From: an uncultured Candidatus Actinomarina sp.
Lineage (GTDB): Bacteria > Actinomycetota > Acidimicrobiia > Actinomarinales > Actinomarinaceae
Reading direction: 5' to 3'
NCBI GenBank assembly: GCA_902555985.1
Contig: CACDUI010000001.1
Span: forward strand, 1 to 64,000
Length of the DNA stretch: 64,000 nt
Shown here: positions 6,839 to 45,165 of the stretch, piece after piece
Layout of the letters: each line of letters opens with the position of its first letter
How positions within the stretch are numbered: position 1 is the first letter of the stretch
Notes under the pieces: generated by a model
What the model was told of the DNA's origin: nothing
Seen by the model: only the letters and a program-made list of their open reading frames with translations
Database searches by the model: none
Translations under genes and position numbers: made by a program

Positions 6839-7759
6839 TTAAACTTTTTGTTTAGTGTTCCTTCTAGTTAAAACATAAATCATTATTACTAAAAACAATA
6901 ATGATATTAATAGTAACTGGTCTGAATACACGTTAGTTTGTGCACTTTCTTCGAAAGTGTTAGACAACTCCTCAACAAGCTGGACCGTAGTTGTTCCCCA
7001 GTTGCTTGCGAGGGTGTCATCAAGAAAATACACATTGGAGCTTTCTACTGCTGATATATTTCCCCAACCTTCTCTTATTGAAAGATCTTTATTTAAATAA
7101 TCAGAGTGTCCAACAACGATATAGTCTGGATTAGACTGTATGACCATTTCCTCACTCAGAGCTGGATATCCACTTCCAAAAGGGTCTTCTTCTGAATTAG
7201 CAATATTTACAACACCAAGTGCATTGTAAATTTCTCCAATTAGTGAATCAGAATTTACACTGTAAATTCCATAAGAATATCCAATTTCATGATAAACAGA
7301 AACATCTTCGTAATTTGCATCATCTAATATCCTGTTAATTTCTAGTTTCATATCTCTAACCTTCGAAGAGGCTTCACCTTTTTTATTTACAATCTCACCA
7401 ATTATTGAAATTTGAGAATAAACATCTTCAAAATTTTTTGCTGGTGGAAGTAAGACGTAGTTGATTTCTTGACTTTCAAGTCCTTCGACTATTCCGTTAA
7501 AATCAAAAGCAATAATTACCATATCTGGGTTTAATGGCGCAAGCTCTTCCGCTGTTACTGTATATGCATCTATTTTTTCCACTGGAAAATCAACCTCAGA
7601 AAAAGCATCTACTGCAACTAGAGTATCCTGCGCTTCTAATGACTGAATAATTTCAGTGTGTGTTGTTGACAAAGATATAATTTTTATATCTTCACTTTCT
7701 TGTGCTGGGCTCGAACACATCGATACCAACAAGGCAAGAAAAATTAACTTAGTTTTCAT
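6839..7759 (-). CDS. Cobalamin/Fe-type substrate-binding lipoprotein with C-terminal membrane anchor
   Basis: A 306-residue BtuF/FhuD-type periplasmic-binding domain. It has a signal peptide with a short lipobox-like end (LVSMCSSP), the family motif IISLSTTHTEIIQSL, two alpha/beta lobes joined by a long helix, and NPDYIVVGHSDY in the C lobe. A C-terminal hydrophobic helix (about 282-300) followed by a basic tail adds a second membrane anchor, unusual for a lipoprotein binding protein. A cobalamin riboswitch lies directly upstream, so the likely ligand is a corrinoid. No permease or ATPase is adjacent; the transporter must be elsewhere or shared. Confidence 0.82.
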   Translation of the reverse strand: MKTKLIFLALLVSMCSSPAQESEDIKIISLSTTHTEIIQSLEAQDTLVAVDAFSEVDFPVEKIDAYTVTAEELAPLNPDMVIIAFDFNGIVEGLESQEINYVLLPPAKNFEDVYSQISIIGEIVNKKGEASSKVRDMKLEINRILDDANYEDVSVYHEIGYSYGIYSVNSDSLIGEIYNALGVVNIANSEEDPFGSGYPALSEEMVIQSNPDYIVVGHSDYLNKDLSIREGWGNISAVESSNVYFLDDTLASNWGTTTVQLVEELSNTFEESAQTNVYSDQLLLISLLFLVIMIYVLTRRNTKQKV

Positions 7760-41243: not shown

Positions 41244-41891
41244 TTAGCTTATATCAAAAAGTTTTACTTTTGAAGAATTTTCATAAACTTTAGACCAAGA
41301 GCTAATAAGAAATATTTTCTCTCCTTCTTTATCCTTATCTATATTGCTTATAGCAGTATGAAAGGTTCCATTAACATAGATACTTAAATTACGCATAAAC
41401 TCAGCCTTGGAAATTTTTAAGTTTTCTTGTTTAAAGATATTTTGAATTATATTATTTCTAATATTTACAAACTCGTGATTTTTAAAATTATCATTAAATA
41501 TATTTCCCACCATTAATAATCCATAAACTTGAGAACCCGCAAATGGAAATTTAGTGTTGGCATAACTTAAACCTTTATAAATTAAATTTAATTTATCTTT
41601 TTCGCGCATGTTGTTCATAAGGTTTACATTGTAATGATGTAATGCTAAATCAAGCAGATAGTTTAAGATTGATAAACTAAGGTCTACTTGTAAATTAGGA
41701 AAGTGAGAATAGATAGTTACGGTTGATACACCAGATATTTTTGACAATTGAGCAGCTGAAATATTTACCCCACTTTTACCATTGTCATCCTCAATTATTT
41801 TTATTGCAGAGAGTATTAATTTTTGATGAACATCAGCCCTTATCTTTTTTGATCTTTTGACTCTTCCGTCTATTTTTGATTCTGTTTTCAT
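41244..41891 (-). CDS. TetR-family transcriptional regulator
   Basis: A 215-residue regulator with N-terminal helix-turn-helix (ISAAQLSKISGVSTVTIYSHFPN, residues about 43-66) preceded by a basic arm. The C-terminal half is a divergent all-helical ligand domain. It is divergent from the membrane-protein operon at 42083, and the 191-bp gap holds three palindromes, so it very likely controls that operon and itself. Confidence 0.85.
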   Translation of the reverse strand: MKTESKIDGRVKRSKKIRADVHQKLILSAIKIIEDDNGKSGVNISAAQLSKISGVSTVTIYSHFPNLQVDLSLSILNYLLDLALHHYNVNLMNNMREKDKLNLIYKGLSYANTKFPFAGSQVYGLLMVGNIFNDNFKNHEFVNIRNNIIQNIFKQENLKISKAEFMRNLSIYVNGTFHTAISNIDKDKEGEKIFLISSWSKVYENSSKVKLFDIS

Positions 41892-41919
41892 TGTTAATTA
41901 CTTTTTCGATATTTAAGTA

Positions 41920-42001
41920 CATCTAAAAGTTTAGATGACTATTATTAATTTTGAAGTTTTAACTTAATAAAACTTAAGTTAAAAAACTTTACTTAAAAGT
42001 T
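41920..42001. promoter_or_regulatory. Three palindromes, candidate TetR operators
   Basis: Palindrome 1: CATCTAAA-AG-TTTAGATG (41920-41937). Palindrome 2: TTTTAACTTAA-N6-TTAAGTTAAAA (41957-41984), 11-bp perfect arms. Palindrome 3: AACTTT-ACTTA-AAAGTT (41985-42001). Centres of 1 and 2 are 42 bp apart, about four helical turns. Palindromes 2 and 3 share an AACTT/AAGTT core. Confidence 0.7.
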
Positions 42002-42082
42002 ACAAAAAAATAATTTATTGTCAATTTAAGGAAGTTAAATTAACAAAAGAATACAAAAAACTTATGGGAGGTAAGTTCACTT

Positions 42083-42625
42083 ATGAAAAATTTTTTCTTA
42101 CAGGATGATGTTTCTACCGCAAAAACATCATCAATAATGTTCTTTATTTCTGGATTAATAGCTTTTATACAGCCAGACATACTAGTTGTCAGAACATTAG
42201 CTAGTTTCTTTGGAGCTCTAGCAATAGCAAATATAGTACTGCTTGGTCCGCAAATTATGGAAGACAGTATTCCAGAATCTTGGCAAACAGGCAACGCAAT
42301 GATTGCAGCTGTTATTTTGCTAGATAATTTAATTGATACGGGTTATGTTGCACGAGAAATGGAAAACCCAATCGCTAGAGAACCAATTTTTATATTTCTG
42401 AACATTACTTTCCTTGGGTATGCTTTTACAACTGAAGGAAAAATGTCCAATATATTCAGGTACATGATTATGTTTGGTGCTTCTGCATTTATTCTTGTTT
42501 TAGGCGCAGAGTTCTTTTTTGGAGTTGAGATACCAGAATCTCTTGACATAATATTCTTGCCTGTTTTCTTTACTTGGCTTATAGGAATTACAGCAGGAAC
42601 TTACACAGCTTTTAATAATAAATAA
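42083..42625 (+). CDS. Six-helix membrane protein, tandem paralogue A
   Basis: A 180-residue membrane protein of unknown function with six predicted helices (about 14-30, 37-56, 69-88, 96-113, 121-143, 152-174). It shares three landmarks with the next two genes: an MK-x-FF start, a D-S-I-PESW motif after helix 2, and an IPESL motif after helix 5. An EGKMSNIFRY loop follows helix 4. It is first of the TetR-facing operon, with GGGAGG about 11 bp before the ATG. Six helices and no retinal-type Lys rule out a rhodopsin. Confidence 0.75.
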   Translation: MKNFFLQDDVSTAKTSSIMFFISGLIAFIQPDILVVRTLASFFGALAIANIVLLGPQIMEDSIPESWQTGNAMIAAVILLDNLIDTGYVAREMENPIAREPIFIFLNITFLGYAFTTEGKMSNIFRYMIMFGASAFILVLGAEFFFGVEIPESLDIIFLPVFFTWLIGITAGTYTAFNNK

Positions 42626-42649
42626 AAAAAAGAAAGGAAATAAAATAAA

Positions 42650-43222
42650 ATGAAAGCATTTTTTACACAACCGATAGGACAACTTGCAAGACAAAATGCA
42701 CTTGGATTTATTGGTTGTAATTTATATCTAATAGTTATAAATTTTGGATCATTTGATTCAGTAGAGGCAGTTGATAAAATATTTAACTTTGCTTGGGGAT
42801 TTACACTTTTAGCATTGATTATTGCAGGTTATAACTTAGTAGAAGATCAAGTACCTGAATACTGGAGAATGGCGACTGGAATTTTAGCTGCAGTTATTAT
42901 TACGGGAACCCTTATTGAATTAGCAATACCAGAGTTTCAGGAGAATGGATTTGTTCCAATGTACTTTTTATGGGCATTCAACTCATTAACTTATAGTTTA
43001 ACGAATAGAGGAACAGGGGTATTTCGACCAATCTATGAAAATCTAAGTATTCTTGGTTTCCTCTCAATACTTATTGGCACAGGAGCAAACATATTTTTTG
43101 ACTACACACCACCTGAATCTATTCAACCTATTTTTGGAATTGGTTGGATTGCAATGGTTATTGGTTTAGGTTACGGAAGTTATGTTGCTTGGGGTGACAA
43201 AATGTCATCAAGCACAGAATAA
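42650..43222 (+). CDS. Six-helix membrane protein, tandem paralogue B
   Basis: A 190-residue paralogue of the genes on both sides. Landmarks: MKAFF start, EDQVPEYWRMATG after helix 2, TNRGTGVFRP after helix 4 and YTPPESI after helix 5, ending GYGSYVAWGD. The ribosome-binding site AAGAAAGGAAATAAA is nearly the same as those of the following genes. Function unknown; six helices imply an integral membrane role. Confidence 0.75.
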   Translation: MKAFFTQPIGQLARQNALGFIGCNLYLIVINFGSFDSVEAVDKIFNFAWGFTLLALIIAGYNLVEDQVPEYWRMATGILAAVIITGTLIELAIPEFQENGFVPMYFLWAFNSLTYSLTNRGTGVFRPIYENLSILGFLSILIGTGANIFFDYTPPESIQPIFGIGWIAMVIGLGYGSYVAWGDKMSSSTE

Positions 43223-43239
43223 AAGAAAGGAAATAAATT

Positions 43240-43779
43240 ATGAAATCATTTTTTGCATCAACAGATAAAGAAAATGCACAACAGGCTGGTTACTTATTTC
43301 TAATTACTAACCTTTTAGGATTTGTAACTACAGGATTAATGGGAATGGAAGCTCCTCCGGGAGAGCTATTGGTAAACTTTTTATGGGGTTTAAGCATTGC
43401 TGGTATTTTTCTGACCATCAAACCATTATTAGGAGATAATGTACCTGAAAATTGGAGAGAAGGCACAACTTTTCTAGCAGCAGCAATTTTTGCAGGAAAC
43501 TGTTTAACACTAGGAAGTGATGGAAATGAATTTGGTCCGTTTTTCTTTTTTATTTGTTTAAACATGGTGGCTTTATATGCAGTTTCAGAAGGTGTTATTG
43601 GTAATATATGGAGATACAACCTTTTAGTCGGAGGGCTTATGGGAGTTATTTTTGCTGGGGCCGGGACATTTTTTGGATATGAACCACCAGAAGCTTTAAT
43701 GCCCCTTCAATTAGTCCTTTGGATAACATTTATCTTAGGTCTAGGAGTAGGACCATTGTTAGCATGGAGAGATAGATAA
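43240..43779 (+). CDS. Six-helix membrane protein, tandem paralogue C
   Basis: A 179-residue paralogue. Landmarks: MKSFF start, GDNVPENWREGT after helix 2, SEGVIGNIWRY after helix 4, YEPPEAL after helix 5, ending GPLLAWRDR. It lies 17 bp after paralogue B, with AAAGAAAGGAAATAAATT before the ATG. The conserved PE-x-W and PPE motifs at the same membrane faces suggest a shared binding surface or contacts between the three. Confidence 0.75.
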   Translation: MKSFFASTDKENAQQAGYLFLITNLLGFVTTGLMGMEAPPGELLVNFLWGLSIAGIFLTIKPLLGDNVPENWREGTTFLAAAIFAGNCLTLGSDGNEFGPFFFFICLNMVALYAVSEGVIGNIWRYNLLVGGLMGVIFAGAGTFFGYEPPEALMPLQLVLWITFILGLGVGPLLAWRDR

Positions 43780-43827
43780 TGTATCTAAGGCATTTTCAAA
43801 TTAATCAAGACAATAAGAAAGGAAGTT

Positions 43828-44448
43828 ATGTTAAGCAATAAAGAAGCAAAAATTGGATCAAACATGGCAAGGATATTCGCAATTGCGATTGTTCCAAGCT
43901 TTTTAATACAAGCTTTTGCCCTTGATCCCACAAACCCTGGATACGACTCAACATGGGGGCCGGCACTGTCAGTTCTCAATGTTGTTACAGGTTTTGCATT
44001 ATTATTCGTATTTGCTCTAACTACAAAATTATATGGTGATGACAATAATCCTTATGTAAGAATTACAGGGTCTATTGCATTTGTCACACAGTGTATTTTT
44101 GTACAAGATGCATTTGCAGGACCACTAAATGAAAATAGTGATAATGCATTATTTACGACAAATGAGATTTTGCAAACAACTGGAACAAATGGTCCAGTTT
44201 GGGCATTATTTTTAGGTATTTTTACACTATCAGTATTAAGAAGCAGCAAGGTTGATCTCCTTCCAAGCTGGGGCGTTAATGCCGGATATGGTGCAGCAAT
44301 ATTAGTGATTGTTAATGGAGTAGGTTCAGCATTTGGATTAATTCCAGATACAGCTAATTTAATTATTTTAGTTTTAGGTGGAGTAGTACTCTATCCCGCA
44401 ACTGTGTGGGCACTTGGGGTATCTTTCCAAAACTCTGGAGCTGAATAA
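43828..44448 (+). CDS. Six-helix membrane protein of a different family
   Basis: A 206-residue protein with about six helices (17-33, 46-64, 78-96, 118-138, 148-168, 172-194). It lacks the PE-x-W and PPE motifs of the three preceding genes. Extracytoplasmic or loop segments contain DPTNPGYDSTWGPALS and DAFAGPLNENSDN. The GAAAGGAAGTT ribosome-binding site matches its neighbours. No family recognised. Confidence 0.72.
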   Translation: MLSNKEAKIGSNMARIFAIAIVPSFLIQAFALDPTNPGYDSTWGPALSVLNVVTGFALLFVFALTTKLYGDDNNPYVRITGSIAFVTQCIFVQDAFAGPLNENSDNALFTTNEILQTTGTNGPVWALFLGIFTLSVLRSSKVDLLPSWGVNAGYGAAILVIVNGVGSAFGLIPDTANLIILVLGGVVLYPATVWALGVSFQNSGAE

Positions 44449-44467
44449 CAAAGAAAGGAAGAAATAT

Positions 44468-45103
44468 ATGTACTTTAGAATAACAATTCCATCTCTTCAG
44501 GACGGAAAAAAAGACGAAGCCACATCTTTTGTTAAAGAAAAAGTTATGCCTGAGTTTGATGGCACACCAGGGCTTTTAACTATGATGGCCGCCATTACTG
44601 GAGAGACTTCTGGTATAAATATGTCAGCTTATGAAAGCAAAGAGTCAGCTGAAGCCGTAGAAGAAAAAATACAAGGTGTATTATCAGAGGCAGCTGGAAT
44701 GATGGCAGCACCTCCTGTTATATACCAAGGAGATGCGGTTTTCGGCAAAGTTTATCAAACTATGCCTAAAGACAGTCAAAGACCAAGCTACTTAAGATTG
44801 GTAGTTGGTGTTGCAAAAGACACAAATGCAGTCTTAGGCTTTCTTAAAGAAAAAGTTGAACCAATTTATGAAGAGTCAGAAGGACTTCAAGTAACTGGTG
44901 CAATTTTTGATGGAAGTAGTGCAATTAGTTGGAACTTCTGGGACTCAAAAGAAGCAATGGATGTTGCTGTTGCAAAACTACAAGAAGCTCTTGATAGTGA
45001 ATCAGAGACAGACTTGTTTGATGGTACAACTATAGCCTATATGGGACCTGTATACGCAGGTAAGTTATTTATAGATTTTAATGAAGGAGACACTCCTGCT
45101 TAA
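44468..45103 (+). CDS. Duplicated ferredoxin-like (ABM/Dabb-type) soluble protein
   Basis: A 211-residue cytoplasmic protein made of two similar halves (about 1-100 and 108-211). Each begins with a YFRITIP / YLRLVVGV strand, then an FVKEKVMPEF / FLKEKVEPIY helix and a strand ending in S-AYES / WNFWDS-KEA. This is the dimeric alpha-beta barrel pattern of ABM and Dabb proteins. Such folds act as monooxygenases, cyclases or binding proteins, but no catalytic residues can be assigned. Start is the ATG at 44468 after AAAGAAAGGAAG. Last gene before the terminator at 45131. Confidence 0.72.
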   Translation: MYFRITIPSLQDGKKDEATSFVKEKVMPEFDGTPGLLTMMAAITGETSGINMSAYESKESAEAVEEKIQGVLSEAAGMMAAPPVIYQGDAVFGKVYQTMPKDSQRPSYLRLVVGVAKDTNAVLGFLKEKVEPIYEESEGLQVTGAIFDGSSAISWNFWDSKEAMDVAVAKLQEALDSESETDLFDGTTIAYMGPVYAGKLFIDFNEGDTPA

Positions 45104-45130
45104 TTCTCTCTAACAAAAATAACGCATAGA

Positions 45131-45165
45131 AAAAAGGGATTTTATAAAAATCCCTTTTTTTTATC
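45131..45165 (+). terminator. Intrinsic terminator after the TetR-facing operon
   Basis: AAAGGGATTTT, a three-base loop ATA and AAAATCCCTTT form a perfect stem followed by a T-run, with a matching A-run upstream, so it may work in both directions. It lies about 27 bp after the 211-residue gene and closes the five-gene unit. Confidence 0.92.

Follow-up and report, generated by a model that had tools for sequence, protein, structure and literature searches.

Why does an ocean bacterium with a streamlined genome, in which paralogues are reportedly few and the median intergenic spacer only 2 bp (PMC7771536), keep a row of mutually related membrane protein genes? The question is raised by positions 41244 to 45165 of a 64,000-nt stretch of DNA from an uncultured Candidatus Actinomarina sp. 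(GenBank assembly GCA_902555985.1, contig CACDUI010000001.1, positions 1 to 64,000 of the forward strand; the whole stretch is referred to as the window). Here three paralogous six-helix membrane proteins (A, B and C), a fourth membrane protein (D) and a soluble protein (E) are encoded on one strand, and a TetR-like gene lies divergently beside them. This operon is one allele of a genus-wide array that occupies a single site and varies in the number and order of its genes, and its first gene is preceded by a structured leader RNA. The array and the leader are well supported; the biochemical function of the encoded proteins can be inferred only tentatively. The family comprising A, B and C is named MEM in the following. 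The genes and flanking elements are:

41244..41891, minus strand: TetR-like gene, divergent from the array; residues 13-108 weakly match TetR-fold proteins in the PDB.
41957..41984, no strand: 11-nt perfect inverted repeat with a 6-nt spacer in the interval between the TetR-like gene and gene A; candidate operator.
42083..42625, plus strand: gene A, six-helix membrane protein, MEM family.
42650..43222, plus strand: gene B, six-helix membrane protein, MEM family; AlphaFold2 pLDDT 90.6.
43240..43779, plus strand: gene C, six-helix membrane protein, MEM family.
43828..44448, plus strand: gene D, six-helix membrane protein, distant MEM homologue; AlphaFold2 pLDDT 89.6.
44468..45103, plus strand: gene E, soluble protein with two ABM-like domains.
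About 45131..45162, plus strand: T-tailed inverted repeat, a probable terminator, read directly from the DNA.

Across the genus, the array occupies a fixed site between an M20-peptidase gene and a PNPOx-like gene. Twenty-one loci were complete, with both flanking genes and everything between them readable, and these loci show 20 distinct gene orders, with zero to three MEM, zero to two D and one to four E copies each. The A/B/C-type, D and E genes recurrently co-occur. They form an undescribed and functionally constrained gene set, which supports the undescribed system suspected in the first-pass annotation, a model's reading of the window whose gene set and coordinates for the operon and the divergent TetR-like gene are all correct. 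That annotation had also proposed a TetR-controlled system, in which the three paralogues together with D and E would form a fixed complex induced by a small molecule. The divergent TetR-like gene and the inverted repeat between it and gene A would fit such a model, but none of the other 20 complete loci has the TetR-like gene, and the regulatory feature that is shared is the RNA leader. Since the number of A/B/C-type genes per species ranges from none to three, the three paralogues are unlikely to form a fixed complex. As a general model of the locus the TetR-induced complex is refuted, and we consider it highly improbable overall. The anticipated co-occurrence of all five genes with TetR therefore fails for TetR, but the system survives with a variable list of subunits.

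According to the order-wide genome study, mobile elements have not been recognised in Ca. Actinomarinales, and a single flexible island is conserved throughout the order; this island, fGI1, spans 43-79 kb and is characterized by envelope-glycan genes and tRNA hot spots (PMC7771536). Judged by that description, the array resembles fGI1 in its fixed location and in a variable content exchanged as small cassettes, but it measures only a few kb and consists of one membrane superfamily and one soluble family. Neither the array nor the leader is mentioned in the passages of that study that were consulted. Lineage-specific paralogue arrays and structured leaders are each of a known kind, whereas the present combination and the families involved are not described in the literature searched.

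The distribution of these families is narrow. A protein search with C found MEM in 26 of 35 genus members, including the source genome, and in none of 24 other genomes of the class. A MEM profile scored above its threshold in 31 of the 42 genus members scanned, one of which owes this to a D gene only, but not in any of the 147 further genera of the class. Among 347 genomes from 219 genera of the phylum, D was confined to the genus apart from one match in genome G081, which was rejected as a chance match to a membrane protein with a zinc-ribbon-like N-terminus. Full-length E proteins occur only in Ca. Actinomarina, and five other genomes give short, weak matches. Two further observations concern the distribution of MEM genes. 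A contig titled Marine group II euryarchaeote REDSEA-S43_B8 (L111, LUSA01000094.1) carries Actinomarina-type MEM genes with 59% identity to B and probably is a mis-binned actinobacterial contig. Moreover, solitary and more divergent MEM-family genes (MKK[FL]N...) were found outside the array, in other contexts, in four genus members (L056, L057, L058 and L059).

Comparisons between species further illuminated how the array changes. Gene C differs from its counterpart in AG-422-J23 by a nonsynonymous divergence (dN) of 0.005 and a synonymous divergence (dS) of 0.142, whereas dS reaches 1.50 in the flanking M20 gene and 1.69 in the PNPOx gene. Similarly, dS between the B genes of the window and AG-470-F09 is 0.325 as opposed to 1.52 in M20, and B shares 93% DNA identity in this pair, the flanks about 70%. 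In 23 genome pairs, an array gene was at least 10 percentage points above the best flanking gene in DNA identity. These values indicate that single array genes recombined recently between species, and dN/dS values of 0.03-0.14 point to purifying selection on each array gene. The array might be a surface-variation or immunity locus, whose membrane proteins are exposed to phages, toxins or competitors and diversify by gain, loss and exchange, as other tandem paralogue arrays do. The varying copy number and gene order and the transfer of single genes between species are consistent with this possibility. An arms race, however, would raise dN/dS above the low values observed; PADLOC defence models gave no family at E 0.1 for any of the six proteins, a phage-family search produced no useful match, and the soluble ABM-like partner and the redox genes found in some arrays would be left unexplained. 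Thus, a role in surface variation or immunity appears unlikely. A membrane superfamily that is multiplied, reordered and exchanged under strong purifying selection, and that stands behind one conserved RNA leader, is at odds with the reported economy of these genomes; it points to a function that Ca. Actinomarina cells keep changing despite that extreme economy.

The membrane proteins form one superfamily. A, B and C are full-length paralogues as originally proposed (26-32% identity, BLASTP E 1e-13 to 5e-25), and the shared motifs described for them are present in all three. The AlphaFold2 models of B and D each consist of six long helices. D had been regarded as a fourth membrane protein that merely accompanies the paralogues. 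A membrane protein it is, but not an unrelated one: relatives of D are picked up by the MEM profile with E values between 6e-8 and 7e-7, and the MEM and D profiles align with an hhalign score of 44 over 176 colinear columns, where the reversed control scores 19 and unrelated families score 12-16. By these profile comparisons, D and A/B/C are distant homologues within one superfamily. Arrays also encode further small proteins with several helices, at L049 6910-7437 and L047 6520-7062; these have an LP/FP-x-WG step but only weak similarity to MEM and D, and the superfamily may thus be larger than MEM and D as described here.

No known transporter or enzyme family was matched by A, B, C or D in profile searches, in line with the first-pass view that the three paralogues belong to no known family. 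The membrane proteins did not reach Pfam or NCBIfam cut-offs and matched no PDB chain by profile, and a viral fold search with the B model returned nothing at E 0.001. The best PDB fold match of B was the acetate-succinate permease SatP (5ys3; Foldseek probability 0.92, E 0.24, TM 0.47, 21% identity over 189 columns). AceTr/SatP proteins (PF01184) resemble MEM in their length of about 188 residues, their six helices and this weak fold match, and MEM proteins could accordingly be imagined as small oligomeric channels or permeases of the SatP kind. However, besides the poor Foldseek E value, the hhalign score of MEM against 36 AceTr sequences (12.3) remained below that of the reversed family (14.6), so that profile similarity does not exceed the control level, and PF01184 has no match in the genome. 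Homology to SatP/AceTr was therefore rejected, and a SatP-like function is improbable. The nearest named family tested was DUF4386 (PF14329), whose members are similar in size and have a similar LP-x-W step in the second half. Its local score against D was 24.0, with 13.1 for the reversed control, but at a probability of 5% this similarity is not significant; more distant DUF4386 relatives provided no bridge, PF14329 had no match in 13 genus members, and the family itself lacks a known function. DUF2871 was matched by two D relatives (best E 5e-5) and is present in 2 of 199 actinobacterial genomes. HlyIII, TspO and EamA gave isolated weak matches only (best E 5e-4) and were discarded.

The soluble protein E is duplicated, as first supposed: its two halves align with an hhalign probability of 99.6% (E 1e-24), and both carry a W-x-S/N-x-E/D-A signature that is also seen in ferredoxin-like proteins of the ABM/Dabb type (PF03992, also PF07237). 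Among 34 relatives of E, 25 match ABM weakly (best E 6.5e-5). The E protein of the window stays below the curated Pfam cut-off of ABM (PF03992), and its only Pfam match is DUF1428 at 16.5 bits, the cut-off being 27. In contrast to ABM/Dabb proteins, E consists of two fused domains with sub-cut-off similarity and is encoded in an array beside six-helix membrane proteins.

What precedes the array had been overlooked in the first-pass annotation. In 23 genomes, the first MEM gene is immediately preceded by a conserved leader with two hairpins, both with GGAAG-type loops, which in the window comprises:

42020..42085, plus strand: structured leader RNA of 66 nt including the start codon of gene A; covariance-model match, 71.5 bits, E 3.8e-12.
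42020..42044, plus strand: hairpin 1 of the leader, with a GGAAG loop and 9 of its 10 pairs formed in the window; covariation over 16 distinct leaders.
42059..42077, plus strand: leader hairpin 2, with the Shine-Dalgarno sequence in and beside the loop; based on the fold of 23 leaders and on pair counts.

In hairpin 1, a stem of ten pairs carries an R-G-N-A-G loop. Two main versions of the stem occur, UGUAAUUUAA/UUAAAUUACA and UGAGUAUGGG/CUCAUAUUUA, and pairing is complete in both. Over the 16 distinct leaders counted (L036 and L048, whose loop length differs, were left out), 96.3% of the cells are paired compared with a shuffled mean of 75.6%; two-sided changes affect 7 of the 10 pairs, none of 500 shuffles reached the covariation score, and slid registers are only 22-43% paired. 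G-U pairs account for 25 of 154 paired cells, and their retention favours an RNA stem over a DNA dyad or operator. In a scan of 1.02 Mb (98.7% of the source genome), the match at this array was the only strong one, the next scoring 20.8 bits (E 0.74). A model trained on the first leader version also recovers leaders outside its training set at array starts, those of the second version with E 2e-4 to 2e-3; four leaders of the second version (L039, L046, L099 and L100) are either missed or do not score above chance. No family in Rfam 15 reached its gathering score in the window region or at seven loci. Two leaders, L055 4943-5009 and L097 5817-5883, are hybrids whose two hairpins come from different versions, which suggests that recombination has taken place inside the leader or beside it. 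A TANAAT-like element is located 6-7 nt before hairpin 1 in most species, and the transcript therefore probably starts at this hairpin.

The leader quite likely acts on the mRNA, and translation would then be set by the ribosome itself or through recognition of the two GGAAG-type loops, whether by a ligand or by some other factor. Hairpin 1 would be situated at or near the 5' end of the transcript and hairpin 2 would present the Shine-Dalgarno sequence. This arrangement recalls leaders controlled by CsrA/RsmA, such as that of glgC, where a hairpin further upstream has one GGA in its loop and another GGA is found at the Shine-Dalgarno sequence (PMC7652899). The present stems, however, have 7-10 pairs rather than the four or fewer typical of CsrA-selected hairpins, and CsrA (PF02599), detected in 9 of 18 other members of the class, was not found in 26 genus members. 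With no CsrA found in the genus members searched, control by CsrA was rejected, and the loops would have to be read by a different protein, by a ligand or by the ribosome. For the question of what controls the array, the leader offers a direct assay.

The ribosome-binding sites behind the leader are conspicuous as well. They had been described as near-identical throughout the operon, which applies to B, C, D and E, all with GAAAGGAA, but not to gene A, which has GGGAGG inside a hairpin. Of the 937 open reading frames with 120 aa or more that were counted in 98.7% of the source genome, only 10 have GAAAGGAA within 20 nt upstream, and four of these are B, C, D and E, a uniformity beyond chance. 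The remaining occurrences of this rare site include the genes at window 6839-7759 and L265 18146-19438 (both minus strand), which, judged from sequence only, we take to resemble substrate-binding transport proteins. Across the loci of the genus, with start sites picked by one rule for all genes, a Shine-Dalgarno-like motif precedes 114 of 127 array genes as opposed to 40 of 207 other genes. These strong sites are also what might be expected if the leader had no regulatory role, hairpin 1 protecting the 5' end and the GGAAG loops serving as ribosome landing sites for constitutively high translation. The Shine-Dalgarno-like character of the loops, the promoter-like element just before hairpin 1 and the failure to find a known regulator agree with such a scenario. 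A purely protective hairpin, however, could vary its loop sequence, and a generic stabiliser would be reused, yet the leader is unique to the array in its own genome. A leader without regulatory role seems rather unlikely.

Some arrays contain additional genes, for a luciferase-like monooxygenase (PF00296, E 7e-50), a Pyridox_ox_2 protein (E 8e-23), an acyltransferase-3 protein, and NIPSNAP-like and cupin-like proteins. A second, smaller module at another site (L093-L096 and L177-L182) consists of E and usually D and has no RNA leader; the leader model gave no match at this second E-D locus. The module often adjoins what we assume to be an MsrA-like gene, in several species, and sugar-kinase-like genes.

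The explanation that we tentatively prefer is that the locus encodes a translationally controlled membrane module for the handling of a lipophilic small molecule, with the array allele placed behind the leader. A small molecule is suggested by the signature that E shares with its family, by genes of flavin and redox type in some arrays and by the MsrA-like gene beside the second module. Somewhat more tentatively still, MEM and D may bind a lipophilic molecule in the membrane or let it pass, and E might accept it on the cytoplasmic side and change it chemically. Different gene sets would then suit different molecules, which would explain the trading of single genes between species. Several observations weigh against this explanation and the reading of the leader on which it builds. 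E matches ABM only below the curated cut-off, homologues of known function are lacking for the membrane proteins, and the extra flavin-type genes occur in some loci only. Several genus members are without a MEM gene, most of these assemblies being incomplete. In hairpin 1, the two-sided changes largely reflect one split between the two versions, so that independent events are fewer than the counts; in hairpin 2, all changes are one-sided. Finally, the promoter and the transcript start were read from the sequence alone. A bolder and correspondingly unlikely extension is that the two GGAAG-loop hairpins represent a new class of cis-regulatory RNA, which senses a metabolite or binds a protein and controls a gene-swapped membrane module conferring species-specific small-molecule capacity.

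The TetR-like gene was found at this locus in the source genome only. The divergent regulator has no Pfam match to TetR_N, and its weak PDB matches are to SlmA and EthR. In the window, the upstream part of the region before hairpin 1 differs from that of other species; here only, the promoter region found elsewhere seems to have given way to the TetR-like gene and to new upstream DNA. The 11-nt inverted repeat lies on the TetR side of this region and is a possible operator, although the region is AT-rich and the repeat could have arisen by chance. In this genome alone, the TetR-like gene would add transcriptional control on top of the leader, and induction by a small molecule would be conceivable at this level.

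In L040, L041, L048 and L098, a long gene of about 1,100 aa, presumably PutA-like, is located directly upstream of the MEM array; the conserved leader is kept in L048 and is lacking in L040, L041 and L098. In one group of species, a gene adjoining the M20 gene (L042 642-3815, minus strand) encodes a large protein, about 1,000 residues long, that has numerous repeats containing Cys and a tail rich in G and P.

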